This document shows positions 37,739 through 58,109 of a stretch of 64,000 bases of DNA, one piece after another. The notes beneath the pieces are model-generated. The model saw only the letters and a program-made list of their open reading frames with translations, was not told the DNA's origin and ran no database searches. Position 1 is the first letter of the stretch, and each line of letters starts with the position of its first letter. Location: NCBI GenBank assembly GCA_028753945.1, contig JAPNXP010000002.1, positions 13,764,001 through 13,828,000 of the forward strand. The letters are read 5' to 3'. The translations under genes were made by a program, and so were the position numbers. The DNA is from Hexactinellida sp. DTS-2022. Taxonomy: Eukaryota > Porifera > Hexactinellida.

Positions 37739-40700
37739 TTAAATGGTATTTACTGGTTTTCGGTAGCCTAATTGTAAACTGTTATTAAACCTCTTCTCAA
37801 TTGTTTTAATTCTCTTACCATCATACACTGTAAAATCTAGTGTTTCTCTTAACTTCTGATTCAGCACTAACTTTCCCAATGATTTCTTACTATTGGGAAT
37901 TACTATATCTCCTGCAATGTTATTTCTCTGTTGCGTGTGTGCTTGTTTGAGTTGTTGCAGCCTCTTGCAGCCAATTTGATCGTACTTCTTTGGACTTTCT
38001 AAATCGCCATGTACAACTAGTAGAGTTTCGATTAAGCAGTTTACCAAATCAATATTAGGCAAAGAGGATTGTATTAATGTCACCAGCATATCTTTCACAA
38101 GGTTCCGTGCATCTTCTAGCTTTCTTTCCATAGCAGCTTGTTCTACTGCAATGAGAGTTTTTATTACTTCGCTCCGTAGTAGCTGAACGTAGGCGTTCTG
38201 TTCTTCCTGTGTGAAATTTGTTGCTCCACTATAGTTCTTATCGATACTCACTTTTCCCTTTGCCTCAAGCCTCACCTTTAAAAAAGGAAAACCCAAATTT
38301 ATTAGCGCCTGAATTCAGTATTTGATTGTTGATGACTACAATTATATTTACTAATTCCTAATTACACGCGCTTTTAATCTAGAAATTTTATAATAACCTA
38401 AGTTGGCTTCATATGTACATACAATACTGCAAATATAGTTCGCTTAATTGCCACATATTCATTGGTTCTTGGTTTATGAATGGATAATCACATTTGAATC
38501 ACTAATTACTAATTAGAGCCTTGTGAGAGGAAATTAACGTTACATTATATTAACGTAACTTGTGCAAATAACTTCGATATTTAACGCTTTCATTTATTTA
38601 TTTACTCGTTAATTTTCATTACCTTAATTCCATCAACTATGGATTTGACATAAGGAAACTCGAAATGGAGAGCTTTATTTCGAGAATGTAGATCCATACA
38701 AGGAGATCGAACTACGTAGTTTAGAACCTTATTCTTTTAATTTTAGAAAAAAATAGAATTAGTTTATTTATTTGAAATTTTTGCTCCGAATCGCGTTAAA
38801 CCTTTCGTAGTTTTTCCCCATAATAAGGTAACTTTCAGTGATCCATATTATTTACAGTGATTTTTATGCCCCGATTGTTTTAAAAATGAATGAGACTAGA
38901 AACCGCATTTATTTTTGAGATAATTATTAGATAGGTAAACAATTATTAATTTGGCACTATATAAATTTATAATATGATTATTTACTGTTGTTTATAAAAT
39001 AGATAAACAATTAATGGAAAGAAATGTGATGAAAACACAAAAATTAGATTGATATTTAATGTTTCACCTGAGATCGCATAGTTTTGAGCGATGCGCCTCG
39101 CCTAGACCGAAGGGCCCATTTGTTTACATAATCTGATAATTCTAAAAACACTGATAAATTAGACGATTTTGCAAAAAAGTATCGCAATCCCGATCACTAT
39201 TCTAGTTTCTAAGAGGATCTACGGATCCAATCATTATCCTTTTTACGATCCTTTCATAATCATTCAGGCAGATATTGACAGTATATACATAGTCAATTTG
39301 TTTATATATTTTGATACAAAATCCAGATCGTACGATTATGGATCGAAAGATCCTAATTCCCTAGTGGTGAGTGATGTATGCAAACCTCGAATTTTAATGG
39401 GAACATTGATATTTTGGATCTCTATACTTTACACCAATTTATACTTGGCTGTATGATGTATCGTGAATAAAGTGTACATTTGGCAGAATTAGGTTTATTT
39501 GGTTGTCGTTGTATGATTATCTGAATCCATACTTACCTTATTCATTGTTACTAAACTGTGTGCGGTCATTGTCACAGTTGCTAACTGCTTACACTGATCT
39601 TCATCACTGAGATCTTCAGTGAACTGAATAGGTAGTAAGATATCGATATTGTTACCAGCTGGAATAAAGGGAATACTGATTGTGCTGTTAGGTCCATTAC
39701 TAATCAGTTTGTAGTTGGAGGGTAGAGATTGTGGAGTACACAGCTGAACCTGAAGTAGAAGCTATAAGTCAGAGCTAGGATATTGAAATACGGTATTCCC
39801 CCGAATAAGCCCTGGGGGCTTGAATAAGCTCCGAGTCAATAAAAATGACATTGGTATGGAAAGATTTAGATACATTAGTTGATTACAGGAGTGTAATTTC
39901 ATTGATTTTTCAACTTCGGTATGTATACTGTCGGTGAGAACCATTCGAACGGATCTAAATATTATTTTCTGGATTTTTCAAACAAAATTCAGGCCAAATT
40001 TGTCCCACGAAAACAATAAGCGCCGGGGGGGGGGCGCTTCGAATCAATACAGTACATGGATCTCGCATAATATTCAAAACTACTTTGATTTAATATCAAG
40101 TATATCAGAATTTATTTTACTATTTTACTGCCAAACCCAAAATCTATATATTTATCCGAATGTACACAAGGTAAATTTCTTAAAAAGTATTTCTCATGCA
40201 TCGTGTGTTCTTAAGCTGACTGACTATAATGAAGAACCTTTTTAAATTACCTGAGCACTGGCTACGAAATTTAGATGTATATTTTTAGCCGCAACTGTTG
40301 CGCAAAATCCGTATATTCTTGCAAATGCTACTGGTAAATCTTCCATCGTATTAGAAGAACCGCTTAAGTGAATGGGGAAATACAGTCCGTCGCAGGCATC
40401 TGACAGACTCTTCAATTCAACTGGTGGTTCGGTGCCATAGGCAATAACAGAAAGGGTTAATTGTCTATCAATAAATTTTATTTTATTAAAAGCGTCTACT
40501 GTATTTCCTCTTATCGTAGAATAGTTTGTGCATCCCGCGTTGGCACCCCCATCTGTGAATAGTATTATGCTTTCAGTAGGGGTAGCATTTGATGAATCAA
40601 CCTAATATTAATGCAAGTTTCAATAAATAAAAATTAATACTCTCGCTAAATACAGTCTAAAGGGTAATTTTAAACCAATTAATCCCTTGAAATTCAAACA

Positions 40701-42885
40701 AATGGAATTACGTATTGAGATATAATAAAGCGTACCTTTGCAAACTCGGCGATTGCTTTGTTTATGCCATCTTCTATATTTGTCATGTCATCTACTTCCA
40801 ATTCTGAGATTACATTGGCAGCTGTACTTTTACCGAGATGATCTGTTACAGTTAACTTAAGTTTAACTTCAGCACTATTTGAAAATGTAACTATACTCAG
40901 TCTATCGCAGGGCTTAAGCTGGTCTAAGAGGCCATTCAGTGTACTCTTCATTACTTCCATGTGTTTATTCATGCTAAAGCTCACATCTATGACAACGCAT
41001 ATGGATAATGGTATTTGGGCTCCAGTACCTTCGTATGAAGAGATTGTGCAGAGTAAATCCAGTTTGGTATTCTTTCTCGGGGGCGTTATTGTTTGTTTGC
41101 TACTTGTGAGAGATAAGGAGAGCATGCTTTCAGTATGCATAATAGGGGTGTTTGAACCTCCTTGTAAATCTTCTATGGAAGTAATACACAAATAATTACA
41201 GATTTTAACACAATAAGGATAAAGTGAAGTAATACAATATATTGTGGAGGACATACCTTTTGTGAGACTCTTCTTCAGAAAAGCAATAGCTTTGTATTTA
41301 TTCTTAGAGTAGTAACTTACCAGTTCTTCTAATGCTGAAAACTTATGCACCGTTTCCAGATAAAACTTTTCACCCTCATGCACAATCCTGAAATGATTTA
41401 CAGTATCGCCATTACGAACTGAGATAGAGTACTTTCCTATCTCCGAGCTGTTTCTTATCAGAAAAGTGTAATTATCAATGCTAGGCTGAAGCAATATTTT
41501 CTCAGCTTGAGTATGATCGATACCAGGGAGGTAAAACCTATATAGTTTTAATACTGGTTAAGTTGGTTAACCTATTTGATTTACTTACACTAAACTTTTT
41601 CCCAGACAAGTAATATCTTTTACAATAAAATTACTATTGTTATACAGTGAACTCCCGTTATAACGAAGTCGGATATAACGTAATACCAGCTTATAACGAA
41701 ATGGAAATAGAACATTAAATGCACTATTTATTATCCACGTTTAACGAATATCCGGATTAGCGAAGGAATTTACCAGTCCCAAGCACTTCGGTATAACGAG
41801 AGTTGACTGCAACTAAATTATTTTCTGTAATTTTTTTTGTTCAGATTTAATAATTCTTCTTCTAAAGCTGAAGGAAAAAAGGACTATATCGATTATCGAA
41901 TAAGTATTAAATTAAGAACTTGAAGTTACTTTTGGGAAGCAATTGTATCATTTGACTGCTCAAGCTCTTGGTCTAACTCTGGCAAATGAATTCCTCCCTC
42001 AATTGATGTTAGTTCAATTTCCTTACGACTGGGAACTGATACCTCTAGAAAATATAAATATATTAATATTTTAATCAAGGAACAATCAAGTTCATTTATT
42101 ATTTATATCTCAACTCTTTTGAGTCTTAGATTCATTTTATACATTCCTGCCAACTTAGTCCAACCAAATCCCTGGACGCATGCTAAGAGTTCCCTGGGTA
42201 CATTTATAGAGGGCTCGATGGTTTAAAAAACTTCTCGCGGGATGTTCGTTCATTGGGAACATACACATCATCCAATATATTTATGTCAGCCGTCGTTAAT
42301 TTAGTTGTTACAAAAATTAACTTTATAAAAATGTAACTATAGACAAACAATCCAAGGTTTCCTTCCCTGGATGCATGAATAATCACAGTTTATTTGCACA
42401 AACCAATGTGTATAATTATGCAATTAATATAACAGGGACAATACAATTGACTCCGCTTAATTTGATCAGTTTTATTCAAAAATATATAACTAGCTATTTG
42501 CTTTAATTAAATAATATCCATTTCTATTTATAGATTAAAAGCTACGGGAATATATCAAACCAAGCTTCATTAAAATGCATCATAGGAGTTAATGAGATTG
42601 CTTATGCAAAACCATCATTTTAGATTTTAGGTTTCAAAATTTAGGTGCTAAAGATTTTGAGGCGGTCCATTTAAGTCTTGATATAATCCTACGTCAGTGT
42701 CTATCTATGCTAATACACAGTTCGAAATATGCTTAAAATATGTGAATTATGACTACTGATGATATTCCAAATTACATATAAAGTATAAAATGAAAAATAG
42801 GTTAAGAAGAAATAAAATGATTTGTATTCTCAACCTAATATTATTAAATACCTTTTGGAGATAATCTGCCACTCGAACAACCCAT
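37739..42885 (-). CDS. SH2-VWA protein with acylation-type N-terminus, seven exons
   Basis: Exons (minus strand): 42885-42852, 42044-41930, 41537-41257, 41172-40736, 40601-40251, 39749-39537, 38275-37739; 655 residues. All introns are GT...AG, with phases 1, 2, 1, 0, 0, 0. Exon 1 gives MGCSSGRLSPK: Gly2 could be myristoylated and Cys3 palmitoylated. Exon 2 is a polar linker. Exon 3 is an SH2 domain (KFYLPGIDHTQAEKIL, then FLIRNS with the phosphotyrosine-binding Arg, and His in VNHFRI). Exons 4-5 form a VWA domain with metal-site DVSFS and LFTDGGAN. Exons 6-7 are a beta-rich and a helical tail (LRSEVIKTL, QAHTQQRNN). The VWA and tail resemble cytosolic VWA proteins such as plant WAV3/EDA40, here without RING. 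Inferred role: membrane-tethered phosphotyrosine-binding scaffold. Confidence 0.87.
41645..41809. mobile_element. TA-type CAGT element in intron 2 of the SH2-VWA gene
   Basis: Left terminus TA + CAGTGAACTCCCGTTATAACG; right terminus CGGTATAACGAGAGTTGACTG. Same family as 59421-59693 (shared TTATTATCC, CGAATATCCG, CCAAGCACTTCG). Confidence 0.82.
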
Positions 42886-43495
42886 AGGGATAATATATGT
42901 TTATTTATTAATAAATTATTTTAATATAATTCTCCTATTTATAATCGAACTTCAATAATTTAAAACAAAAAATAATTAAGATATTACAAAATCTCTATTG
43001 AGTACACAATTTAATATGTTTCATTAGAAAAGTAGATTATATAATCTCCTTACAATTCAAATTGATACTATCATATTCTCTCCAAAATTAATTGAATATA
43101 AAATTTAATTAAGTAATACAAGTTTTATGAAGTAATCTCAATTTATTTGCAAAATTAACAAATAATTATTTGGATTATGTATTGTTATTGGAAGTTGTTG
43201 AAATAATCAAACCAATAACAATACCGACAACAAGATACACAGAGGGGGGCACAGTTAATCAAAATGTTACTTCGTTAATCGTTGATCCGTTAACCAAAAG
43301 TTAACTCCGTTAATCGTTAATCCGTTAATTCGTTAAAAATGTAACGGAAGTTAACGATAAACCGTTAACGTTATTCTATATTATACAAACAACAACAAAA
43401 TCAGCTTTTTTGCTCTAAAAACACCTAAAAGTGCTAGAACTATAAAATGAGCCTTTGTTGGGTCTTTTTAAGCTGAAATTTCTGCTAGCACAACA

Positions 43496-43798
43496 TACAG
43501 TCGACTCCGCTTAATAGAGTCACCTCGGGACCAGGTTATTTTGACCCCATTAAGCGGAGATATCATTTAACCGAAAATATTTTAAGTCAAACTGTAATAC
43601 GGACCTATAAATTCTGTGAAATTAAAATTTTGATCCCATTAAGCAGTTAAATCTATTAACCGGTGGCCAGACCTGGCTGATTACTAGTGAGTGATTACGA
43701 TTACGATTACGATTACAGGAAATGTTGTAATCGATTACGATAGTAATCGTAATCAGCCCCAAGCCTGCCGGTGGCTCTATTAAGCGGAGTCGACTGTA
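43496..43798. mobile_element. TA-type CAGTCGACTCCGC element
   Basis: The element is 43498-43796, bounded by TA. Termini are CAGTCGACTCCGCTTAATAG and CTATTAAGCGGAGTCGACTG. Decayed relatives are near 7195-7280, 42448, 48590, 52938-53129 and 56925. Confidence 0.92.
43660..43775. mobile_element. 100-bp hAT-like element nested in the CAGTCGACTCC element
   Basis: The element is 43668-43767, with termini CAGACCTGGCTGATTAC and GTAATCAGCCCCAAGCCTG. It has exact flanks CCGGTGGC (43660-43667, 43768-43775). The interior is mostly GATTAC/TAATCG words. Confidence 0.92.
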
Positions 43799-44079
43799 TA
43801 CCAGTGCACGACAAACTGAAATTTGATGGTGGCGAATTAAGCTACCACCTCACTTTTTCTGGTGGCTAAAGAATAAACAACAGCCGGTTTAACAAACTTC
43901 TGATGCCGTATAACAACACCTATGTTAATAACAAAAATGCAACGAAAAGTATAATATACACAAAGTCCAATCAATTTATGGTGGATTAGTTAATCCACCA
44001 AAGGCAAAATTTGGTGGCTTTAGAAAGATTTTGGTGACTACGCCACCAAACCACCTAATTTCCGAGCACTGCTGTATAC
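43794..44079. mobile_element. hAT-like element abutting the end of a TA-type element
   Basis: The element is 43802-44071, with termini CAGTGCACGACAAACTG and CCTAATTTCCGAGCACTG; GGTGGCG/CGCCACC words recur. Its exact flanks CTGTATAC include the final CTG and the TA of the neighbouring element. Confidence 0.93.
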
Positions 44080-44311
44080 TAGTATGTGAAACAGCATTAA
44101 ACTCGATGTTTTTTTCTTCACTTCGCCATTGAGGAGCCTTGCCCAATATAGAGGGGATTTAACGGACTTGTAACGGAAGTTAATTAGTCCGTTGATGATG
44201 TTTAAAGTTAACTTAAAAGTTAAATCGTTAATGAAAAATTTAACTTCGTTAATTAATGATTAACGGATTAACGGTTTAGTGCCCTTGATTAGATACAATA
44301 TGAACTCAGTC

Positions 44312-47030
44312 CTATATTTCGGTTAGTTTGTCTTCTGTTTTATAGGCTCGCTTATGTGTGGCTGGGTAGGTGTAAAGGATTTGGCATCCGAGGTTTCTTC
44401 CATTCAGGATGCTATATATTGGGTCTTGTGTGTTGGCGATTCTAAGTGTGCAGTTACTTGTTGCTGAGCTGATGAATAGGTGTTTTATGTCGATGTTAAT
44501 TTCATCTTCGTGGTTTAATATATGAATGCAGCGCCATCGTAGGCATGGAATAATGGATGTTGTAGTTTTGCATTTAATAATTGGGAGGTATTTGTTGCAT
44601 TTCGTGCATTGTTGCATGTGGTGTATGCTGTAGTCAGTCGGTTTTTGGTAGCTTAGCATTCCTTTTAGTGGTGCCAGTGGTACATTAGGGATGAAGTGAT
44701 AATCCTTTTTGGTTATTGGTTGGAGTTGGTTTTTAGTTGGCCGTGTGTCGGAGAATGTATACTTTATGATTGGTTTAAATTCCCAGGGTTGTTTCGTAGT
44801 GTTTGGGGAAATAGGCTATAGTTGTTAGTTTTTCGATTATTTCGATGGATTTGTGGCCTAGTATTATTAGGGCTGGGACGTACTTTCTTATTAGGTAGCG
44901 AGTGTGTTGGCTGGGTTTGTTCCGATGCGTGTTGCTGAATGCCGAGCTGACGTAAGTGTTTTAACACATTCGTTTGGATGGGTGGTGCGAGTGTGGGTGT
45001 AGAAGCACTGGTTGTCTGTATTTCTGCTGTATAGTAATGTATTCCTTGGTTGCAACTTGCAGGTAGGTATTTGCAATCTTGTGTTGTGTTGGATTCTGTG
45101 GGAATTAGTTTGTAGGGTTGTAGTGGGAGGTCTTCGATTGGGTAGGTGGCGGCTACATCGTCAAAATATATTGTGAGAGTTTGCTATGGTGGTCGGAGTA
45201 GTAAGTGAGTAGGTGGGCTGTGCACATTCGTGCCAGTTCGGGTGCAAGTGGCAGTCCCATTGGGATGCCCGTGTTTCCCAGGTGGTAAATTAGTATTCCG
45301 TCTGTTGCAAAATTGAAATTTACTAAGTGTTTCAGTATATTTATAGTTGGTTTGGAAGGTGTGGGTTGAATGCTACGAAAGCGTCAATTACTAAGCTATG
45401 TGGGGTGTTGGGGTAGAAGCCTCTATCTCACAGCAGAAGATTTCCTCTGGGGGGCCGTATCGATTTAGCTGATCGTCTCGAATATATCCTGTGTTAGGTA
45501 AGGGCAGTTTTCGATTATAGGCGTGATATGTTCCCTTAGAAAGTTGTATGTGCATGCTGTAATAGAGTTTTTGTGGTTTACAATGGGCCGAGAAATTTTG
45601 ATGAGTTCTTTCGGTCCAATTGTATACACGTAGGTGTAAATTTCCGTGTACCGTGTTTGTTCGGTTGTGAATGAAGGCTAGTGGGTTATTATTTTGAAGT
45701 ACATTGTGGGGGGCCTGTCGTCGGTGTTGTGTAGGTTGGTATTGGGTTGAGTTGCGTGAGTGCGTGTTTGAGTTTTACGATACATGAGATGTATTGTGTG
45801 GCAGGTGTTGTTCAGGTATTCAGTGTACATAGATTCGAGGGTGTTGGTGTGGATCAGTATAAGTCCTGATCCTTTGTCAGCTGATATAATTGCGAGATTT
45901 TCTCGTTTGAGGCTTTCTTTTAGGTTTTTCAGGTGTTTAGTGAATTTGTCGTATGTTCTTTTTTCTTTTGATCGTAGGTTGAAATGTGTTAGGGGGCTAG
46001 ATTTTGCTGTAAGTTCAGGTTATGTTCAAATGGGGTTAAGAAAGGGGTTGGTGTTGATTCCTGTAGCCTTTGGAAGTTAAGTCCGTATTCTAGGATTTCT
46101 GTATGGTTAGTGCTGTGTCGAGTTTGTTTGATGGTTGGATGAATATGGGTGGTGGTTAACCGTGGTTTGTTCCGTTGGTAGAGGTAGGAGTGGTGTTATT
46201 GTTTTTGTTAGGTGTTTTGTTTTGTGTGTTTTCATTAGTTGGTGGTGGAGTCTGATTTCGAGATTGGGTTTTCTTCGTTTTCGCACGTGTTGCAATTGTG
46301 GTTCCGGTAACAGTCGGTGTGGAGGGAGGGAGAGATAGCAGTATAGCACTTGTCCCTGACTCCCTTAACAAAAAGGCGCGTAGTTTGTTCGGTCGATTAA
46401 TTTGGCGATGGGTGTGAGTTTGATCTCGTCGGTTCTCCAGATTGTTGGTATTTGTGGTGGGGATGGTTGCAGGTGTTATTCAAGCATTCGCTTGTACGTT
46501 TGGTGGGCATTGTTTCCCGTAGCTGGAACATTGTTTGTGATGGTGTTCATTTCGGGATTTCTTGGGAGTCCACAGCGTGCGCATAGCCCGTGATTTTTAC
46601 AGGCTTCTATCAGGGCTGGGTAGATCAGTTTTCGTGTTTCGTAGGGGATTTTGTCTGGTGCCGCTTGTTGAAAAGCTTGCCGTTTTTCGTGGTTGGATGA
46701 GAGTGGACATCCGCGGATTTCCTGGTGGTTTGGGTATCCCTCTGTGATTGTTGTATGTATTTCCATGAGTCTTTGCCTTAAGCTGGTTGGTAATTGTTTG
46801 GCGTACTCGTCGATGATGCGGTTTCGAGTTTTTGCTTCTATGTTGCTGGTGTATTTCTGGTCAGTAGTGGTTAAGATGGTTGCTGCATTCAGGCATCGAG
46901 TGCACGGGTATTGGGTTTTGTACATGTGTCGGATGTTCTGTGGGCGTTTGGGTTTAGGTTGGATGGGTAGTCGCTCCTTTATCTGAATTAATATCCAAAT
47001 AAATTTATATAATTTCAAATCATGTTGCAT
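44312..47030 (-). mobile_element. Degenerate reverse-transcriptase retroelement (Penelope-like affinity)
   Basis: Read on the minus strand, motifs appear in order: a 184-codon N-terminal frame (47030-46476) with C-x2-C pairs (CTRC, CARC); N-L-A-I-I-S-A-D-K-G near 45880; G-I-P-M-G-L-P-L-A-P near 45250; the catalytic Y-F-D-D near 45160; and a C-terminal frame (44659-44312). The ADKG motif and the order resemble Penelope-like reverse transcriptases. No single frame spans it, so it is broken by frameshifts and stops. The coding strand is extremely C/A-rich, unlike any neighbour. No LTRs and no clear endonuclease were seen; assignment to Penelope-like elements is moderate. Confidence 0.72.
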
Positions 47031-47496
47031 TAGTTTAAGATAATATTTATAATAACGAGTAATTCATTAACCATCTCCACGTTCACCAGAATCAACGATT
47101 GTTACGACCACATACTATAGTAAGTATATGAAAATATATTTTTATATATGATATTAACAGTGCAACCGCGATTAACCGTACTCTTCGATTGTCCGAAGAC
47201 CCCATTTTGGTCCCAATGTTGTTTAACAAAGTTGTTCTTTAATCTTTATAGAATTATCCGAACTGTAGATTATCCAAACTTTTTTTACTGTTCCAGCGAG
47301 TTCGGATAATTGATGCCAGTGTATATAGTATATACAGCCATTTGTAAAAGGAACGTCTCGCGCTCCTGGATAATTCCTTGATTGAGGCTGTATCCATAAT
47401 TTTAATTAATTCTATCAAAAATTAATTTTTTCATTCAAATTGAGATGTTGTAATAACTAATCATGATCTATTGTAAAGTACAACTTGAAAAATATA

Positions 47497-47680
47497 TTAC
47501 TTCATCTCCATTATTTATAGTACATTACTGCATCTCCATTATTTATAATACATTACTGCATCTCCAATATTAATATACATTACTTCATCTCCAATATTAA
47601 TAATACATTACTTCATCTCCAATATTAATAATACATTGTTTCATCTCCAATATTAATATACAATGTTTCATCTCCAATTT
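47497..47680. repeat. Tandem repeat, seven copies of about 27 bp
   Basis: Units share TTACTTCATCTCCAATATTA with small changes (for example TTACTGCATCTCC, TTGTTTCATCTCC). The array ends 122 bp before the proposed start codon of the plus-strand SH2-VWA gene, so it may lie in its promoter or 5' UTR. Confidence 0.92.
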
Positions 47681-47802
47681 AACTGTCCCTCTAATCAAAT
47701 TGATTATTTCATCTCCTTCTTGATTATTTGTATTAATGGAGAAATTTATTCCTTTTGAATTATATTTTGAGATAAATTAACACTATTATTTAAGTTTGAT
47801 TA

Positions 47803-50800
47803 ATGAAGAGTGTTGGGAAAGGCATTAAAAAGAGATTATTACCAGGTGAGATCTTTAAATTGTAGAATATACAGTGCATAAAGAAATCTTAAAATGCAAT
47901 ATATAGCAAATATTATCTCCAAGTAACTATATATTTCATTAATTTCCTTATTTGTAAGGCCTTCAGATCAGGGCTGGTTAGAGAAATACGTATTCTGGCC
48001 TAATGTTATAACTAACTAGATTATTGATTCTTCATTACTCTTGAACCCCTTTAATTACTCAAGGTACAAATAACTTGCGTATTACATTTCTGAATCAGAT
48101 AATATTTGATATTTGCAAACAAACAAACGAGAGACCTGATTACAAATTAAGTAATGAAAATAACGGTAAACACATTTACACAGTCATATACGTAGATATG
48201 AGTAGTACTTTGTTACACACTTTTTGTATTTCGAAAATTATACTCTTACAAAGTATAAAATATTATCCTTCAGGTCGACATAGAGTAACAAGCAAACCCA
48301 CTTCCGATCTGGACAGTCATCTCATCTGCGTTAGTGAATTAAGAAGTCTAATTGATGATGATAAACTCTTTTATCCCAGTACATCATCCCTATTTTCTCA
48401 AGATGGACTCTTAGCTTCTGAAAAGTTAGTTAAATATGTTGTGCTATCAAACTTGTTTTGTGTACATATTTATTATACAATTTTAAACGTTCAGCGCCCC
48501 CGCACTTTTATTTTTAATAAATTAGTTCTACAATGCACCATTTAGTATAAATTACTAGTTTTACAACAATAGTGCTTATAAAGAATACGTCGATTCCGCT
48601 TAATTCTGACGCCTGTTTATCGAGGCAATCAGTTAAATGGGACAAACTACCGAAACCCAACGTGCGGAGTCCACTGTACTGATCCTATATTAGAATGATT
48701 TAATTGTTGATATTTATATGACATTTTGGAGTTCATAATACAGTGCAACTTCGATTATCCGAACACACCTGGCTGGTCCAAATGTTATTCAATAAATTTG
48801 TTCAGCCATAAATTATCCGACTGTAGATTATCCGAATATCTTTGACTGGTGCCAAATTGCCAATGAGTTGGGATAATCAAGGTTGCACTGTTATCATTCA
48901 AATTAAATATGTGTGATAAGTATTAACATACTTATTGTCAATTGAAAATATAGAATTCGCAATGAGCATATGTTCATTTTGAAATTTCACTAATTTGTTT
49001 GCATATTTTGGAAACAACAACATTATAAATATATTCATATTATAATATAAATGCGAAATTCGAAATTGGCATCCTTTTTACTTAGTATATTATATATAAC
49101 ATTTGGAATTGGAAGATACTCTTTATCTCAAATATAAATGCGGTTTATATTCCCCTAGCTCTTTAATACAATCCGGACAAACATACACAAACACACACAC
49201 AAACAACAATCGAGTTTTAATTATATAGATTAACATCTATTGCTAGAAATACTTCTTACACATTTTAGGTGGTACTTCCCAGGAATCAATAGAAACCAAG
49301 CAGAGATCATACTGCTTAGTCCCAAACTCCAGAATCACACGTTTCTAGTTAGGATCAGTACGAGGCCAAACCATTACGCTGTTTCTGTGAGAAGTGACAA
49401 TAAGGTGCTTCATCTGCTAATACAGAGTGACATTAGTAAGGAGAAATTCTTTTTGAAGGATTATAAGACATTTCCAACTATTCAAAAGTTAGTGGAGCAT
49501 TATTGCCATAAAACTAAAGATTCATATGTATTCCTTCTTGAAGAGCCTTCAAAAGGTAGGTGTAGCAATATAAAAGTAATTTGCATAACAAAAAAATTAA
49601 TAATTTAGGTATAAACAAGAAACTTCAATTAAAGTTTCATGTAATAGGATAAATAAGCATTTAAATAGTGGCGGATCCAGGCGGGGTTGAGGGGTTGGGG
49701 AGTTACCCCCTTGATTTTAAATGACCTTTGATAAATGACATTTATTTCCAATATACTCAGTATTAAATAGTCAGAAGTTGTGCCAGATGCTATAATTACC
49801 TCAATTTGTGACTCCAACCAATAATACCATTTGATTATTTCCAAATTAATAATATTTTCATTAAATTAATATTTTTTAGATAAATTACTTAGCTTCTAAC
49901 AATGTAGTATGAATCTTTATAGTTATTTGCACGGTTGCCGTGGGAATGGAATTTCCATTCCCATTCCCATCCCATTCCCATAGGAATCCTGTGGGAATCC
50001 CCATGGGAATTCCCATGGGGATCCCCATAAGGAATCCCATAGGGGAGTATAATATACATACGTATACATAAAAAACAATTTAATTACTAAAGCAGATTCG
50101 TATCAATAGTAAAGCCTATATTAATTAAGGATGGCCTAATGAAACCATATTCGAATATCCCATGGGAATTCCCATGGGGATTCCCACAGGATTCCTATGG
50201 GGATTCCCATTCCCATCCCATTCCCATGGGTATGGGGATCCCCATGGGAATTCCCATACCCACGGCAACTCTGGTTATTTGACCTCAAGATTACTCTCGT
50301 GAATTTTCGAAATGTCCAAGATTATCTACTAAGTATGCACTTATTGGGTTTTGAAAATAGGGAAAATAGCACTCTATAGTATCTGACTTCCAGGGACAAA
50401 GCCCCTGGACCCCTTTGGGAGCCCCCGTTGTAAAAATCCTGGATCCGCCCTTGTTTGAATATAACAATTGAGTATTTAATGTGGTTTATATAGCACGAGT
50501 ATCGAGATAGATGCAGTCAGGTCTGCTAATTCTGAACAATTTTTCGCCTGCTTAATATGAAAAACATTTTATTGTGAACATTATGATCCCAATTTAACAA
50601 CTTACATAGGCTTTTTATTAAGTTGAGCTTATTATGAAGTTTCTGTATTATGAACACAATATTTGATCCCCTGAATGTTCACAATAAAATAACCTGACTA
50701 TAGACTATTAGTATATTTATATATGTTATGTCGATTTTGTCAAATGTTGATTTTACAAAATCAACATGAATCAACGGAACTAAAACAAGTGTTCAACTTT

Positions 50801-53800
50801 TTGGCTATATTACTAGGATAATCCTTAGTTTTATTGCATTTTGTTCAGAATTCGCTTCATCCAAAGTATATACCGACTTGTATGAAGAATTTTTTTACCA
50901 AAATGAAATTTTTTACTAGAATGAAAAATATTCCAGGGTGATTTTGCAAAATCAACGAATAAAATATGTCGATTTTATAAAATCAACATTTTTTATTAGT
51001 TGATTTTGTACAATCGACATTTCTTATTAGTTGATTTTGTAAAATCGACATTCTAAAATGTCGATTTTACAAATTCAACATTACAGAATGTTGATTTTAC
51101 AAAATCAACTAATAAAAAATGTTGATTTTGTAAAATCTACATTCTGAAATGTCGATTTTATAAAATCAACATTTCAGAATGTTGATTTTACAAAATAACT
51201 AATAAAAAATGTTGATTTTATAAAATCGACATTCTGAAATGTCGATTTACAAAATCAACTAATTAAAAATGTCGATTTATAAAATCAACTAATTTACAAA
51301 TTTAACTTAAGTTTGTATGTTGATTTTACAAAATCGACATTTTGGATGTTGATTTTGTAAAATCGACTATTTGACAAAATCGACATAACATATATAAACT
51401 TATACATATTTTAAATGAATTTACTTTAATAGCCAAGTTACAGTTGAAAACTGAATTCACTCATTCAAGTGAGCTATCTCTCTCCCTTACCTGCTCCCAC
51501 CAAACAATAAATCCATTACAGTTTGAAGATAAGGAACAGCTTCTGGTTACCATATCCTCCTCGCAGGAGACTGTGGTCAGCACGCCACTCTCTATATGTG
51601 CTGTTATAGACTTGAGTGATAGTATGGAAGATTATCTTCCTATTATGAAAGCTACCCTGAAAACTCTAGTGGACCAACTCCGTCCTTGTGATAAACTAAG
51701 TATAATATCTTTTGCAAACAAGGCGAAGCTAGAGTTGGATTTGATTTCAATTAATAGTAATGGTCGGCGACAGGCGTTACAAGTTATCTCTCAGTTGAAA
51801 GTGTGGGGCTTAACTAACATCTCTGCTGGCATACAAGTTGCTATGAGAGTACTTGCAAAGGTGAGCAGTGTGGTTTACATTTGTGATTTGTCTGTCATTT
51901 CCCCTGAGACAGTGGCGTAAACTTGGGGGGTGCCGGGGGGCATGGCACCCCCCGGCGGAAAATCATGAGGGTGCCAGGCCTGCCTGGCACCCTCATGATT
52001 TTCTGTTGCATGGCCAAGACGAAATGCTTGGTAGTGCCGCTTGTGCTAAGATGTAGAATACCTTATTATAGAAGATTAACCCTAAGGAAATTAACGCGAT
52101 TTGGAGCAAACCATTTTCAAATACATGAGATTAACGCGAATAATTTTTTTTTAAAATATTTTAGTTAACGTCATCTAAATTAACGCTGTAATACATTGGT
52201 TCTATCTACGTACTACCAAATGTCTCTATTTGGTGTAAGTGGGTTTGTGCCATGTTGGCACCCCCATGACCAACCTCGAAGTCTACGCCCCTGCCCTGAG
52301 ATATTAATTTACGTACATACTTAGTTGTATTTGTAATAATTTATAATAACGTGTAACTGATCACCCTAGATAAATATGTTTTAACACAAGGGTGTGGATG
52401 TTGTCAAAATATATCGAAGGTTAATCTTGCATTCCGAATCTTAATAAATTTACAAATCAGAAATAACAAGTGTCCAATTTCACAAAACAGATGTTGGCAT
52501 ATCTACGCCACTGCTATACGTATTATCCAGAATCAAAATTATACTTTCTCGATTTCTAGACATTCGTGTGTACAACTTAACTTAATTACATATACAAAAG
52601 TATCCATAGGCGTCGTAAACCCGGACATGTCCGGGCGCTCCAGAGGAGCTACCCAGAATCCGGATAATAGTACACTTGTATAGAGGTGGGTTGAACTACG
52701 GTCCTCAAGCAGTTGGCACGGGCCTAGATATCATTGACCGGACGCACGAAGGACCATCCCTCGTATTTACGTATGCAAATGTTCTGCCTAATAGTTATCC
52801 CCACCAAAGCATAATTTCTATCTAACATATTCGTATATACGGCATATAAATATTGTTGACAGGGCCAAAGAATTGCAGCTGAGTATTACATTATCTAATG
52901 AATAAAACTAACAATTTCTGAGTATTAAAATACAGTATAGTCGACTCCCTTAATAGAGTGATTCGAGAGTAGTTTGACCCGTCAAGTGGAAACCCCAATT
53001 TCATGAAAATTTTTGGCATTGCCTTTTATGCCATGGTTCTGTTCTTTGAAAAAAAATTACCCTATTGGCTAAGAGCCATTCAACCGACTGGCTAATCGGT
53101 TGAATGGCTCTAATAAGTGGAGTAGACTCTATATACAGTCGAAATCGGATTATTTTGTGGATAATTCGACAAAATAATCCGACAAGACAAATAAATCCGG
53201 TGGGATATCAATGCAAAATGGTATATATATCATAATTTTCCTAGAATATTAGGACAAAATAGTCCGATAAAACAAAATAATCTGATGAAAAAATAATCCG
53301 ATTTCGACTGTAGTTTATAAAATTTTTACTTAATATTAAAATAAACGTAAATTGTACTGTGGTCTCAAATTTATGTCATATATTTCTCTAGATTTCTCCT
53401 AACTGTGCTACACCTACAGAGAGTATACTAGTGTTCACAGACGGCGAGGCTAATGTGGGATGTCAATCTTATCCTGATATGGCTCGAAATATGGGAGAAA
53501 TTATCAGTAAAATACAAACAGAATCTATGCGGGTTTGCAGTGTAAGTAGACACATTACTGCCTCCGTAATAGCATTTAGTACTGCCCCTCCTATGGAGCT
53601 GAAGCATATAAGTGATGCTGGTAATGGGTTGTATTTCCTGATTCATATTGAAGAGGACACAAATTCGATAGATGATCTTCCAAAAGCTTTTGCTAAATTC
53701 TTCGGTTTTGCATCGACTGTCGCAGCTAAAGACATCCATCTGAATATACAAGCTGAGCCTCAGGTAAATACACTGTGTTGAAAATTAACTGAGTTTTATA

Positions 53801-56367
53801 GGATTTATTATTACTGAATAGATCCAACTGTGTACTCCACAAAAACTCCAAAGTATCTACAAGTTGCGTTACATGACAGACTCTCAGTGTACAATTGATA
53901 TTAATGATATTCCAGCTGGTAATACAATCAGTATTGCTATTCCTATCCAGTTTAAAGAACGATTGGATGTTACTACTCGTCATTGTAAGCAGCTTGCTAC
54001 AGCTACTATGGAAGCTCATAGCTTTGTAACAAGAAAACAGGTAGCATTTTAGAAGATAATATTATACGTAGTTATTTACTTTATTCTCTATTATTGTATA
54101 AATGTTATTGTTTTGCTGCTTACAGTCCGGTGTTACCACTTACCAGTTGATGTTCCCACGAATAAATAACTTCTGAAATCTATACTACCTAGTATATTCG
54201 CATGATTTTGATTACAATTTGTCTACTAACAATGATCTATAATCATATGATTTTATGTAAATGTTGAGAGACACGACAAAATTATAAACAAAAGAATTCA
54301 TGCCAAAAAGTAATAAAGTAAAAAGTTTTTACCAAAATTATTGTTCATACCAAGTTCATGCTATAACTCAAAACATCAGAAAATGTCAAATACGTATATG
54401 AACCTAATTCATGATGTGGCAACACTGGTTTGTAATGTTCTAAAAGATGCGCCATCAATTCTTCATCCTCATACAATTCTAAAAAGTTCATGATTAAGAA
54501 AAATGAATGTGCAAGAAGTTAAATTATATTTGGGAATTCATTATCAGCAACATAATCACAAGATTTAAACGAGTTGACTGAATGGTGGAATCTAGTCGAT
54601 CTAGTGGAATTACAAAATTTTAATGTAATCAATTTTTCAACGTGTAGAATCGTTTTGATAATAATTGCGTAGTAGAATAACTCTAAACCAAGTATCAAGA
54701 ATAATCAACTAAAATACTCATAGTATACGTTCGGGAACCAACCGAATATCAAAACCTAATACGTATTGAACTAGGTTGCAACCTTGAATTATTATTAATA
54801 ATGAATGTTATTGTTTAACCCTATTAAGGGTGATTCCAATCGCGATTTGAAATTTAATATAGTAACTTTTTATTGCTTCAGCGTAACAGCCTAAGATTTT
54901 TAACAGCATCTTTATATGCATTTCTAAGAATAACTAGATTTTAAAAAAATCAATTTTCATTATGAAACTAAAATAACAAGAGAATTCTATTAATGGCTTC
55001 CCATAGACTATAACACAGTATAATATGCTTAAGTTAACTTAGTAGGAGTTCTTCCCAACTTCTATCTAATGGTTATTTATCAAATTGAATTACTTTTGAA
55101 TATTCTAAACGAGCGATAACATTGAATTTAATTTTTCTTTTCCGCTTGCTTTACATTTTACGAAATTATGTCTAGTTTTCTTCAATAAAGTGCATTTTTT
55201 CGTTAATTTTCAATCATTAAATTTTTTCAAATCCCTAATTGCATATTCTACTTCCGATTTTTTGTTCCTCTAAGTATATTGAAAAGAATGCAGTTCCAAT
55301 TTTTCATCTTTATTATTTCAAAATCCCAAAACTAAGGTTTCTGTATGATCAAAATGCCTGTTTTATTATTTTGAGATACAACCATTTGAATGTTTGGTGA
55401 ATATTTCCCTTAATACTCCACCTTATGACTTTATTATATAATCTTACTTGTTTTGTAATATCCCCGCTGTATTTACATTAAAAATTATATTAGCTTTACT
55501 TTTATGCACATATTACAAATAATTTTCGCAGAAATTTGCTATGTAATCCAGAAGATACCATATATGGAGGTGTGAAATTACGTAAATATCGGTGTTTCTA
55601 GAATTTTTACACCAAATTTTGATTGAATTTTAGAAAATATAATATAATGGTATAATAATCTGCAAAAAAAATTTTTCGTACAACAGAAACAGATTTCCCG
55701 GAAATGTCAATTAATCACGATTGGAATCACCGTTAAGAAGGTTTAAGAAAGTTGCTTAATGTGATTTCTCTTTATAAACTTTCGATGCTCGGCTAGAAAT
55801 CGAATAGGAAATTGAGGAATTGTGACTTGAATAATTTTATGTTTCAATTTCTTCAAGGTATTGCTGGAAACAGCAGGCGAAGTATTCGTTGACCCAATGC
55901 GTGATACAATTGACTTAGAGAAGCCAGAAGCGTATCTTCACTCACTTCGCAGTGAGGTAATACAGACATTGGATCTCGTCTACAAGACTGCTAATGCCAC
56001 AAACTATGAGGACGCAATTTCTCAAGTTAAGAATATGGTGCGGAATTTAATAGAAGCGTCTCTACCTAAAGAAGAAGTAGTGCAATGCCTCGTGGAGACA
56101 CTAATAGTTGTGTTGAATTACCTAAGATGCCCGATTGTTTACATGCAAACGGGATGTAAGATTCTACAATTACTTATGCAAGCTCATACTCAGCAAATAA
56201 ATACTATATCGAATACGATCATGATACCAAGTGACGAACTGATCCTGGACGAACTCGGAGTGAATTTTGAGCTTCGAGAGTTTATAAAATTGTCTATCTA
56301 TGAAGGTACAGGTTCTATGGCTGAAAAGGTCTTTCTTTCAGACTATGCCAACATACAACCAGATTAG
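47803..56367 (+). CDS. SH2-VWA protein, plus-strand paralogue, seven exons
   Basis: Exons: 47803-47845, 48274-48424, 49269-49555, 51433-51860, 53392-53763, 53822-54040, 55858-56367; 669 residues. All introns are GT...AG with phases 1, 2, 1, 0, 0, 0, identical to the minus-strand paralogue. Exon 1 (MKSVGKGIKKRLLP) is the least certain; it is basic and lacks the MGC acylation signal. SH2: W-Y-F-P-G-I-N-R-N-Q-A-E, then FLVRIS with the key Arg. VWA: AVIDLSDSM metal-site motif and LVFTDGEANVG. The tail has CTPQKLQSIYKL, IPIQF, CKQLATATM, then a helical end (LRSEVIQTL, QAHTQQINT). It is head-to-head with the paralogue at 37739-42885. Three of its introns carry large repeat or transposon insertions, which makes it almost twice as long. 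Confidence 0.85.
48741..48890. mobile_element. TA-type CAGTGCAAC element in intron 2
   Basis: Termini are CAGTGCAACTTCGATTATCC and GGATAATCAAGGTTGCACTG. A decayed relative is at about 47158-47335. Confidence 0.85.
48930..49230 (-). repeat. Dispersed repeat, inverted copy
   Basis: Reverse complement of the family near 2994: shared words are AAACAACAATCGAGTTTTAA, CAATCCGGACAAAC, AAATGCGGTTTATATT and GCGAAATTCGAAAT. It ends about 35 bp before the SH2 exon. Confidence 0.7.
49666..50453. mobile_element. hAT-like GTGGCGGATCCAGG element in intron 3, carrying a nested element
   Basis: Left terminus TAGTGGCGGATCCAGGCGGG, right terminus CCTGGATCCGCCCTTG. Flanks TTTAAATA and TTTGAATA match at 7 of 8. 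A lone left end of the same kind occurs at about 63723 (CAGAGGCGGATCCAGG). Confidence 0.82.
49922..50281. mobile_element. Nested element made of GGGAAT words, GTTATTTG duplication
   Basis: The element is 49930-50273. Its termini are CACGGTTGCCGTGGGAATG and TACCCACGGCAACTCTG, with identical flanks GTTATTTG. Both ends consist of repeated CCCATTCCCAT / GGGAATCCCCATGGG words that can fold back. Confidence 0.93.
50720..51394. repeat. Inverted-repeat element built of reiterated TCGATTTT palindromes (copy 2)
   Basis: Same termini as 30644-31106 but inverted orientation. The unique segment is at 50765-50935 and the palindrome array, about 50937-51365, is roughly twice as long as in copy 1. It ends 38 bp before the first VWA exon of the plus-strand SH2-VWA gene. 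Confidence 0.9.
51902..52301. mobile_element. hAT-like element with CCCTGAGA duplication in intron 4
   Basis: The element is 51910-52293, with termini CAGTGGCGTAAACTTGG and AGTCTACGCCCCTG. Identical flanks are CCCTGAGA. It contains a strong palindrome at about 51958-52003 (AAATCATGAGGGTGCCAGGC and its complement). It begins only 49 bp after the exon donor. Confidence 0.94.
52938..53129. mobile_element. Decayed CAGTCGACTCC-type element in intron 4
   Basis: Termini TAGTCGACTCCCTTAATAGAG and GGCTCTAATAAGTGGAGTAGAC followed by TC; a diverged copy of 43498-43796. It sits directly beside the next element. Confidence 0.78.
53136..53310. mobile_element. TA-type CAGTCGAAATCGG element in intron 4
   Basis: Bounded by TA; termini CAGTCGAAATCGGATTATTT and AAATAATCCGATTTCGACTG. 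The first 13 bp equal those of the large element at 61848-62948. It ends 81 bp before the next exon. Confidence 0.92.
54824..55736. mobile_element. TTAA-flanked inverted-repeat element in intron 6
   Basis: The element is 54828-55732, with termini GGGTGATTCCAATCGCGATT and AATCACGATTGGAATCACCG, flanked on both sides by TTAA as in piggyBac-type insertions. No transposase. Its interior, inverted, is related to that of 61848-62948. Confidence 0.85.
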
Positions 56368-57086: not shown

Positions 57087-57650
57087 TCATATATTTGCAA
57101 GTTTAATTCCTAGCTTAATTGTACCATCAGTATTAAGTTCACAATTCCAATCCTTCATTATTAGTCCCGACAGCAACGCAAACGCCTGTTCAATATTGGT
57201 TTCATCTCTCGCACTTGTCTCAATAAAATGAATTCCCCAACTTTCTGCAAGTTCCTTCCCTGTAGAATATTTGATAGCTCTCTTGCATTCCATATCACAC
57301 TTGTTGCCGATAAGAACAAACTTTTGTTTGTTTACATGTATTGACACCTCTTTATACCAAAGATATATCAACCTATCAAATGACTCTCTATTGGTGATGT
57401 CATATACTAGAAATATCCCGTCTGATCTTCTAATTGGACTAATACTCATCAGAGGCAGTTGTTTCTCACTTATATGTGTATCAATTAGCTCTAGATCGAT
57501 TTTGTTGCCATCGATAGTTATCGTCTTTCTCAATAATATGATTCCAACGAATTCAATAAAATCTATTTTATTGTAAACGTAGCTGCGAAAGATACTTGTT
57601 TTCCCAACATTATAATCTCCTATCATTGTAATAGTGAATATTTTCTTCAT
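57087..57650 (-). CDS. Ras/Rab-like small GTPase with degenerate switch regions
   Basis: A 187-residue intronless frame from ATG. The P-loop GDYNVGKTS (11-19), NKCD (116-119) and ETSA (144-147) are intact, so guanine nucleotide binding is likely. Switch I lacks the usual Thr (the position reads EFVGIILL), and the DTAGQE of switch II is DTHISEK (57-63), so the catalytic Gln and the Gly before it are missing. No C-terminal cysteines for prenylation (ends LGIKLANI). The closest pattern is Rab (for example IYLWYKEVSIHVNKQKFVLIGNKCD). Likely a soluble, slow or non-hydrolysing relative, or a decaying copy. Divergent from the NHL gene at 58110. Confidence 0.82.
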   Translation of the reverse strand: MKKIFTITMIGDYNVGKTSIFRSYVYNKIDFIEFVGIILLRKTITIDGNKIDLELIDTHISEKQLPLMSISPIRRSDGIFLVYDITNRESFDRLIYLWYKEVSIHVNKQKFVLIGNKCDMECKRAIKYSTGKELAESWGIHFIETSARDETNIEQAFALLSGLIMKDWNCELNTDGTIKLGIKLANI

Positions 57651-58109
57651 CTCAGATTCAATTGATTCTAACTATACTAACTATAGTTTCATTAAGGAAT
57701 TTATATTTAGTTCATCATAACTGAAGCTTGGTCTTATATAGGATTTAACTAAATTTTATTTTAGTTCGTGTGGCCTATGAACTAGTTATTATACTAAAGA
57801 AAAAAGCCAAGTAATTAGCGAAGAACACAGAATATCTAAAATTATATAACATTAACTACCACACTCGAATTCTCTTCTATTCCCACACTGTAGCCACATA
57901 CGTTAATAACCCAAAAATGTAAGTTTTTATTCTAAATTCTTGTAAGTAATGCTAGAGCTTATATTTCATGAAACAGTGGGAGTATGTATTGTGTGGATTT
58001 TGTACTTGTAACATGGAGTAAGAATATATAGTCTAAATTAGTTAGGTAAGTTAATTCAATACTGTTTATAGTCCTTTGTTGAATAAAATATACAATAGTC
58101 TATGTTTCA
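57651..58109. promoter_or_regulatory. Shared upstream region of GTPase and NHL genes
   Basis: A 459-bp gap between divergent start codons. A short upstream ATG at 58102 is out of frame with the NHL start at 58110 and might reduce its translation. No other element recognised. Confidence 0.5.

Follow-up and report, generated by a model that had tools for sequence, protein, structure and literature searches.

Tyrosine-kinase signals are relayed through SH2 domains, and any domain newly found beside one shows what such a signal can control. Src-family kinases have the order SH4-SH3-SH2-kinase, and the Src-like adaptors SLAP and SLA2 consist of a Src-like front half with SH3 kept, no kinase and a short tail. 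On the side of the VWA domain, the available text of PMC2362128 describes VWA-Vwaint proteins with a U-box or RING domain upstream of the VWA domain and a Vwaint region after it, and the available part of PMC12852372 gives WAV3 as the protein outside archaea that is structurally closest to ArnB. A further relevant protein is Nematostella Nv 200640, given in the same part of PMC2362128 as a Hedge-VWA-cadherin-transmembrane protein with a final SH2 domain. Here we describe two neighbouring head-to-head genes of a glass sponge, Hexactinellida sp. DTS-2022 (GCA_028753945.1), gene A on the minus and gene B on the plus strand, which each place an SH2 domain before a VWA core. The window, meaning the whole 64,000-nt stretch that was analysed, covers positions 13764001-13828000 of contig JAPNXP010000002.1 (C11 below), and the genome searched comprises 112.4 Mb on 18 contigs, from which loci fetched for comparison carry L numbers.

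A and B are genuine chimeric genes whose duplication is old. We consider it likely that an SH2 exon from a Src-family kinase gene came to lie before a VWA gene in their making, and that they would encode a phosphotyrosine-dependent adaptor.

Structure and domain content of the two genes

The exact exon models yielded spliced proteins of 655 (gene A) and 669 amino acids (gene B) that share the order N-terminal tail, SH2, VWA, beta region and C-terminal helical region (Table 1). The initial annotation had proposed such a pair of opposite-strand genes, and the profile search of the spliced proteins that it suggested bore this out, with Pfam SH2 (PF00017) above cut-off and VWA_2 present in both models. 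The SH2 domain of gene A scored 59.8 bits (E-value 2.8e-16, cut-off 21), and a provisional model of gene B gave 58.4 bits for its SH2; for VWA_2 the E-values were 9.9e-13 for gene A and 1.2e-14 for the better of the two proteins. The arginine of the FLxRxS motif and the DxSxS and TDG motifs that had been noted before were recovered in both proteins. The former, which is the beta-B5 arginine in the SH2 pocket nomenclature (alpha-A2, beta-B5, beta-D4, beta-D6), lies in FLIRNS (Arg78, gene A) and FLVRIS (Arg93, gene B), and the beta-D4 histidine is retained next to it in the alignment of both SH2 domains. The DxSxS, Thr and TDG elements of the predicted metal site stand at 206, 274 and 305 in A (DVSFS) and at 220, 288 and 319 in B (DLSDS). 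Neither protein gave a Pfam match to a kinase, SH3, RING, U-box or Vwaint (PF14624) domain at E-values up to 1, and Pfam matches to cadherin, zinc finger and gelsolin domains were likewise absent from both. Peak 19-residue hydropathy reached 1.41 in A and 1.56 in B, the latter inside the helical region and barely under the usual transmembrane threshold of 1.6.

Only gene A starts with MG (MGCSSG), a start that we liken, by a PROSITE-type rule, to the Src SH4 signal and for which acylation is predicted. Gene B starts with MKSVGK, without such a signal, and its first 30 residues contain 8 K/R against 2 D/E.

Table 1. Exons of genes A and B, in window positions
Feature	Position	Strand	Content
Gene A exon 1	42885-42852	-	MGCSSGRLSPK, N-myristoylation/palmitoylation-like start; phase 1 out
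Gene A exon 2	42044-41930	-	Tail linker, entered in phase 1, left in phase 2; corresponds in place to the SH3 exon of Src-type gene L040
Gene A exon 3	41537-41257	-	SH2, residues 51-126 (Pfam PF00017); phase 2 in, 1 out
Gene A exon 4	41172-40736	-	Pre-VWA region (first strands, by family homology) and VWA first half: DVSFS, MIDAS Thr
Gene A single open reading frame, SH2 and VWA first half	40694..41557	-	From the open reading frame list; 84-nt intron open
Gene A exon 5	40601-40251	-	VWA second half, TDG
Gene A exon 6	39749-39537	-	Beta region, by family homology
Gene A exon 7 and stop	38275-37739	-	C-terminal helices with QAHTQQR motif; Tyr628 in the tail
Gene B exon 1	47803-47845	+	MKSVGKGIKKRLLP, basic, without MG start; phase 1 out
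Gene B exon 2	48274-48424	+	Tail linker, entered in phase 1, left in phase 2 at donor GTTAGT
Gene B exon 3	49269-49555	+	SH2; phase 2 in, 1 out
Gene B exon 4	51433-51860	+	VWA first half: DLSDS, MIDAS Thr
Gene B exon 5	53392-53763	+	VWA second half, TDG
Gene B exon 6	53822-54040	+	Beta region, by family homology
Gene B exon 7 and stop	55858-56367	+	C-terminal helices with QAHTQQ motif; Tyr648 in the tail

All 12 introns of the two genes are bounded by GT-AG, and the phases 1, 2, 1, 0, 0, 0 are identical in A and B. The initial annotation had all six introns agreeing in position as well as phase; this stood for the six phases and for the positions of introns 2-6, which interrupt identical aligned codons, and not for the position of intron 1, which is one codon off in a tail without convincing alignment, so that a shared position is seen for 5/6 introns.

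An SH2-only and a VWA-only gene lying side by side could have been wrongly joined, and the intron between the two domains is indeed long in gene B (1877 nt), with the join being known from genomic sequence alone. In gene A, however, one open frame of 287 amino acids spans the SH2 domain and the first VWA exon, the 84-nt intron being read through in frame, and the join is therefore not a splicing guess. Moreover, phase and position of the junction are the same in both copies, and an SH2-only gene would need to have been duplicated together with its neighbour and to end at the same codon. We regard a wrong join as very improbable.

Decay of both copies into functionless remnants, for which one could point to the retroelement-like stretch between them and to the fact that the genes are known from DNA alone, deserves almost no credence: no stop or frameshift interrupts the 655 and 669 codons and every splice site is intact. 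The proteins are 45% identical, and over 643 codons the identity at positions 1, 2 and 3 is 0.561, 0.673 and 0.345. Because second positions (67%), and also first ones (56%), are so much better conserved than third ones (35%, with 27% expected by chance), this pattern marks A and B as old copies under selection on the protein.

The stretch between the genes (window 44312-47063, minus strand) contains retroelement-like frames with strong strand skew and broken open reading frames, which gave no match in a Pfam search; one of their peptides resembles Penelope-type reverse transcriptases. Just downstream of gene B (57087-57671, minus strand) lies a Ras-family small GTPase frame (PF00071, 6.2e-35).

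Origin of the SH2 exon

The genome profile search listed 62 SH2 and 41 VWA_2 matches, among which only A and B have an SH2 within 2.4 kb of a VWA match. Two further pairs lie wider apart, at 21 and 31 kb. A second possible pair on C16, 4.7-5.1 kb apart, was set aside: a separate frame of 551 aa carries its SH2 pair together with a caspase-like region. This make-up is seen at locus L037:65-1717, where a weak caspase-like match (PF00656, 1.3e-4) precedes the two SH2 domains within one frame of 551 aa. Other SH2 pairs were seen in L036:842-2146, a single-frame PI3K p85-like protein with two SH2 domains (inter-SH2 match just 0.067), and at C17:188852-195006, where a near-identical SH2 match pair is present twice, about 5 kb apart, as a recent tandem duplication.

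Outside A and B there are 60 SH2 matches, of which 47 were fetched and 46 could be aligned. Among the fetched domains, A and B are each other's best-scoring match (57.7 and 58.2 bits), and the next best for A is L040 (46.0 bits). In the tree of all alignable rows the pair is supported at 95/77 and joins L075, L043, L040 and L072 at 91/53; after removal of eight long rows it is supported at 100/97 and joins L040 and L043 at 80/75. These two are SH3-SH2-kinase genes on the same contig as A and B; in the L072 gene an MGC start is combined with a diverged SH2 and part of a kinase, with no SH3 seen by Pfam. Contig C11 carries three Src-type genes, at 14.6 and 15.24 Mb (L082-L083 and L084-L085), one of which starts MGCTSSS, has a diverged SH2 and a kinase fragment and is without Pfam SH3.

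The exon boundaries point in the same direction. In 4/46 other SH2 domains (L040, L043, L072 and L058), three of them in Src-type genes, the W codon immediately follows a phase-2 acceptor AG, and in 6/46 a donor-like phase-1 GT lies within 4 codons of the SH2 end. Both boundaries together, the phase-2 start before W and the phase-1 end after ..PK, are found in A, in B and in just one of the 46 others, the Src-type L040 (C11:15.24 Mb). In the L040 gene the first exon starts MGCRGSK and leaves in phase 1 and the SH3 exon leaves in phase 2; gene A matches these phases, with its MGC first exon leaving in phase 1 and its exon 2 in the SH3 slot.

Several observations weigh against a Src-type source. 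The Src grouping is moderately supported (80/75 in the pruned tree and 91/53 in the full tree, where A and B are joined by L075, a long row), the boundary control covers 46 of the 60 other SH2 matches, and 3/46 rows (L048, L050 and one of L070) start inside the domain and cannot show a 5' boundary. L058 also has the 5' boundary, L043, with a phase-0 candidate for the SH4-SH3 donor, is without the 3' boundary, and the L072 gene, without Pfam SH3, has its MGC start and next region in one exon. Gene B has no MGC start, gene A carries His at alpha-A2, and a BLAST comparison of exon 2 with the Src-type SH3 exon produced no significant match. Exon 2 as a degenerate SH3 was accordingly rejected, the residues just before the SH2 being alike by eye only.

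An alternative is a real fusion whose SH2 came from a non-Src gene (for instance SHP2-, Syk- or PLC-gamma-like), the boundaries being coincidence or an old general feature of SH2 exons. By score, the best solved relatives are the SHP2 N-SH2 for A (9.2e-13) and the Syk C-SH2 for B (5.7e-12); the top other SH2 for B is L051 (47.4 bits, Src type not established), ahead of L040 (41.3 bits), and the deep forks of the SH2 tree are weak. On the other side stand the rarity of the boundaries and their concentration in Src-type genes, and the position of L040 as nearest to A and B after each other in the pruned tree, on the same contig. A non-Src source thus seems unlikely to us, and we retain a Src-family gene as the probable donor.

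Kinship of the VWA core

In the VWA tree A and B are sisters (100/100) and group with an SH2-less paralogue on contig C2 (100/99). With the SH2 domains also being sisters, this fits the order of events put forward in the initial annotation, domain fusion followed by duplication; the A/B branch is very long (3.38), by which its placement is possibly affected. An hhalign comparison with the VWA-core family extended over 396 columns (E-value 2.8e-36), covering the VWA domain, the beta region and the C-terminal helical region in full length. This family includes Vwaint members and one U-box member among the best 120 of 1053 relatives, and an ArnB-like fold was found in a modelled member, a family-level model and not one of A or B themselves; together with the WAV3-ArnB relation described in the available part of PMC12852372, this sustains the earlier suggestion that the VWA domain is of the WAV3 type. 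By homology to the modelled member, the core of A and B is of the ArnB/WAV3-like type, with VWA within a split beta-sandwich followed by a helical bundle; the predicted fold of exon 7 was poor overall. Several family members among the matches listed carry Vwaint, and the single-exon relative L029 matches it weakly (0.024). PF00017 is absent from the best 120 of 1053 relatives.

A protein search with gene A minus its tail scored 7997 candidates and returned a single match, which has YfbK-type Pfam domains, and residues 325-669 of gene B gave none at E-values up to 10 among 3477 candidates from a database that includes Oopsacas proteins; such a word-based search can miss 45%-identical relatives and does not establish the absence of orthologues.

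Both proteins end in an aligned tyrosine of the common pattern V/I-Y-D/E-G, A628 (VYDG) and B648 (IYEG). Judging from the family alignment, this tail tyrosine is not specific to the fusion, because a Tyr within 40 residues after the QR motif also occurs in 56 of the 63 motif-bearing proteins among the same best 120 relatives.

Elsewhere in the genome, nine VWA_2 matches form a tandem array at C17:3879097-3898535 (frames of 223-263 codons), and one VWA protein has its nearest named relatives, among the matches listed, in Oopsacas minuta, the first at 72% identity. The same profile search gave 0 matches for Wnt (PF00110), which is weak alone since prokaryote controls also gave 0, and 4 for TGF-beta (PF00019); glass sponges are reported, in the available part of PMC5684314, to be without Wnt ligands and to retain TGF-beta.

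Proposed function and comparison with known systems

In the origin that we favour, a Src-family kinase gene of the same contig would have supplied the SH2 exon, perhaps together with the acylation-type first exon and the SH3-exon slot, and this exon would have been placed before a VWA gene resembling the SH2-less paralogue on C2, after which the fused gene would have been duplicated head to head. The intron phases and the SH2-less sister leave a readable record of how a Src-type kinase gene and a VWA gene may have combined into a new signalling protein. The product would be a kinase-less Src-like adaptor, whose SH2 would dock on phosphotyrosine in an activated receptor or in a substrate of Src. 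Acylation of its N-terminus may hold the gene A protein at the membrane, and gene B protein, with its basic, non-acylated tail, may be cytosolic or loosely bound. The VWA/MIDAS-beta-helical core could serve as effector surface that recruits a partner, as some of its relatives carry ligase modules.

We infer that the SH2 of A and B binds phosphotyrosine because the pocket Arg and His are kept. Alternatively, it may have become a structural or phosphate-independent binding module, in line with the His at alpha-A2 in A, where B and the Src-type SH2 domains retain Arg, and the Leu at beta-D6 in B, where A retains the Arg of Src-type domains; as beta-B5 Arg and beta-D4 His persist in both copies at 45% identity and the SH2 scores lie far above cut-off, we hold such a loss to be rather improbable.

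Given the substrate preference of Src-family kinases, VYDG and IYEG can be read as possible Src-family sites, and phosphorylation of the shared tail tyrosine may have a regulatory role, perhaps with the tail folding onto the SH2 in the manner of Src. A kinase-free switch made by exon shuffling from a Src-family gene, with an acylated SH4 and SH2 before the ArnB/WAV3-type core and with A628/B648 as target of a Src-family kinase and then as ligand of the protein's own or its partner's SH2, is a doubtful extension.

The earlier view that no described protein joins SH2 and VWA has to be given up, as both in one chain are already in print in Nv 200640. According to the available text of PMC2362128, that protein shares with A and B the two domains in one polypeptide, and differs in that its VWA, along with 21 cadherin repeats, belongs to a large extracellular portion ahead of the transmembrane region and its SH2 lies at the C-terminus. 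A cytosolic SH2-VWA protein is not described in the available parts of PMC4758236, PMC2394772, PMC2362128, PMC3167776 and PMC8195603, and the main text of the Oopsacas and Aphrocallistes genome papers contains neither 'SH2' nor 'VWA'.

With Src-family kinases, A and B share the MGC start (A) and, with the Src-type gene at C11:15.24 Mb, the phase-2/phase-1 boundaries of the SH2 exon, but neither SH3 nor kinase was found in them, their C-terminal two thirds are a VWA core, and B lacks MGC. SLAP and SLA2 resemble them as adaptors with a kinase-less Src-like front, yet keep SH3 and have a short tail instead of the VWA core; the SH2 of gene B matches the SLA2 structure 4m4z at 3.7e-7. The Sec23/Sec24 core is alike in Foldseek comparison of the VWA-family model (2.5e-14 to about 7e-11, among the matches listed), whereas the zinc finger and gelsolin matches are missing from A and B. 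WAV3-type and U-box VWA-Vwaint proteins belong to the same VWA family, but in A and B the SH2 occupies the U-box/RING position and no ubiquitin-ligase domain was found by Pfam. As they have no kinase or SH3 they are not Src-family kinases, and having no RING they are not WAV3 ligases; they are VWA-core family members carrying a reader that is likely Src-derived.

The partner of the SH2 is an ancient VWA core. Its eukaryotic relatives include proteins that carry ubiquitin-ligase modules, and an archaeal structural relative pairs with a phospho-reader. In that case, the ArnA-ArnB module of Sulfolobus (ArnB/ArnE), the reader for phosphoserine and phosphothreonine is a separate protein, whereas in A and B an SH2 is fused in front. 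If the kinase-free switch were to hold, A and B would be an animal phosphotyrosine counterpart, within a single chain, of the archaeal ArnA-ArnB phospho-reader/VWA module.
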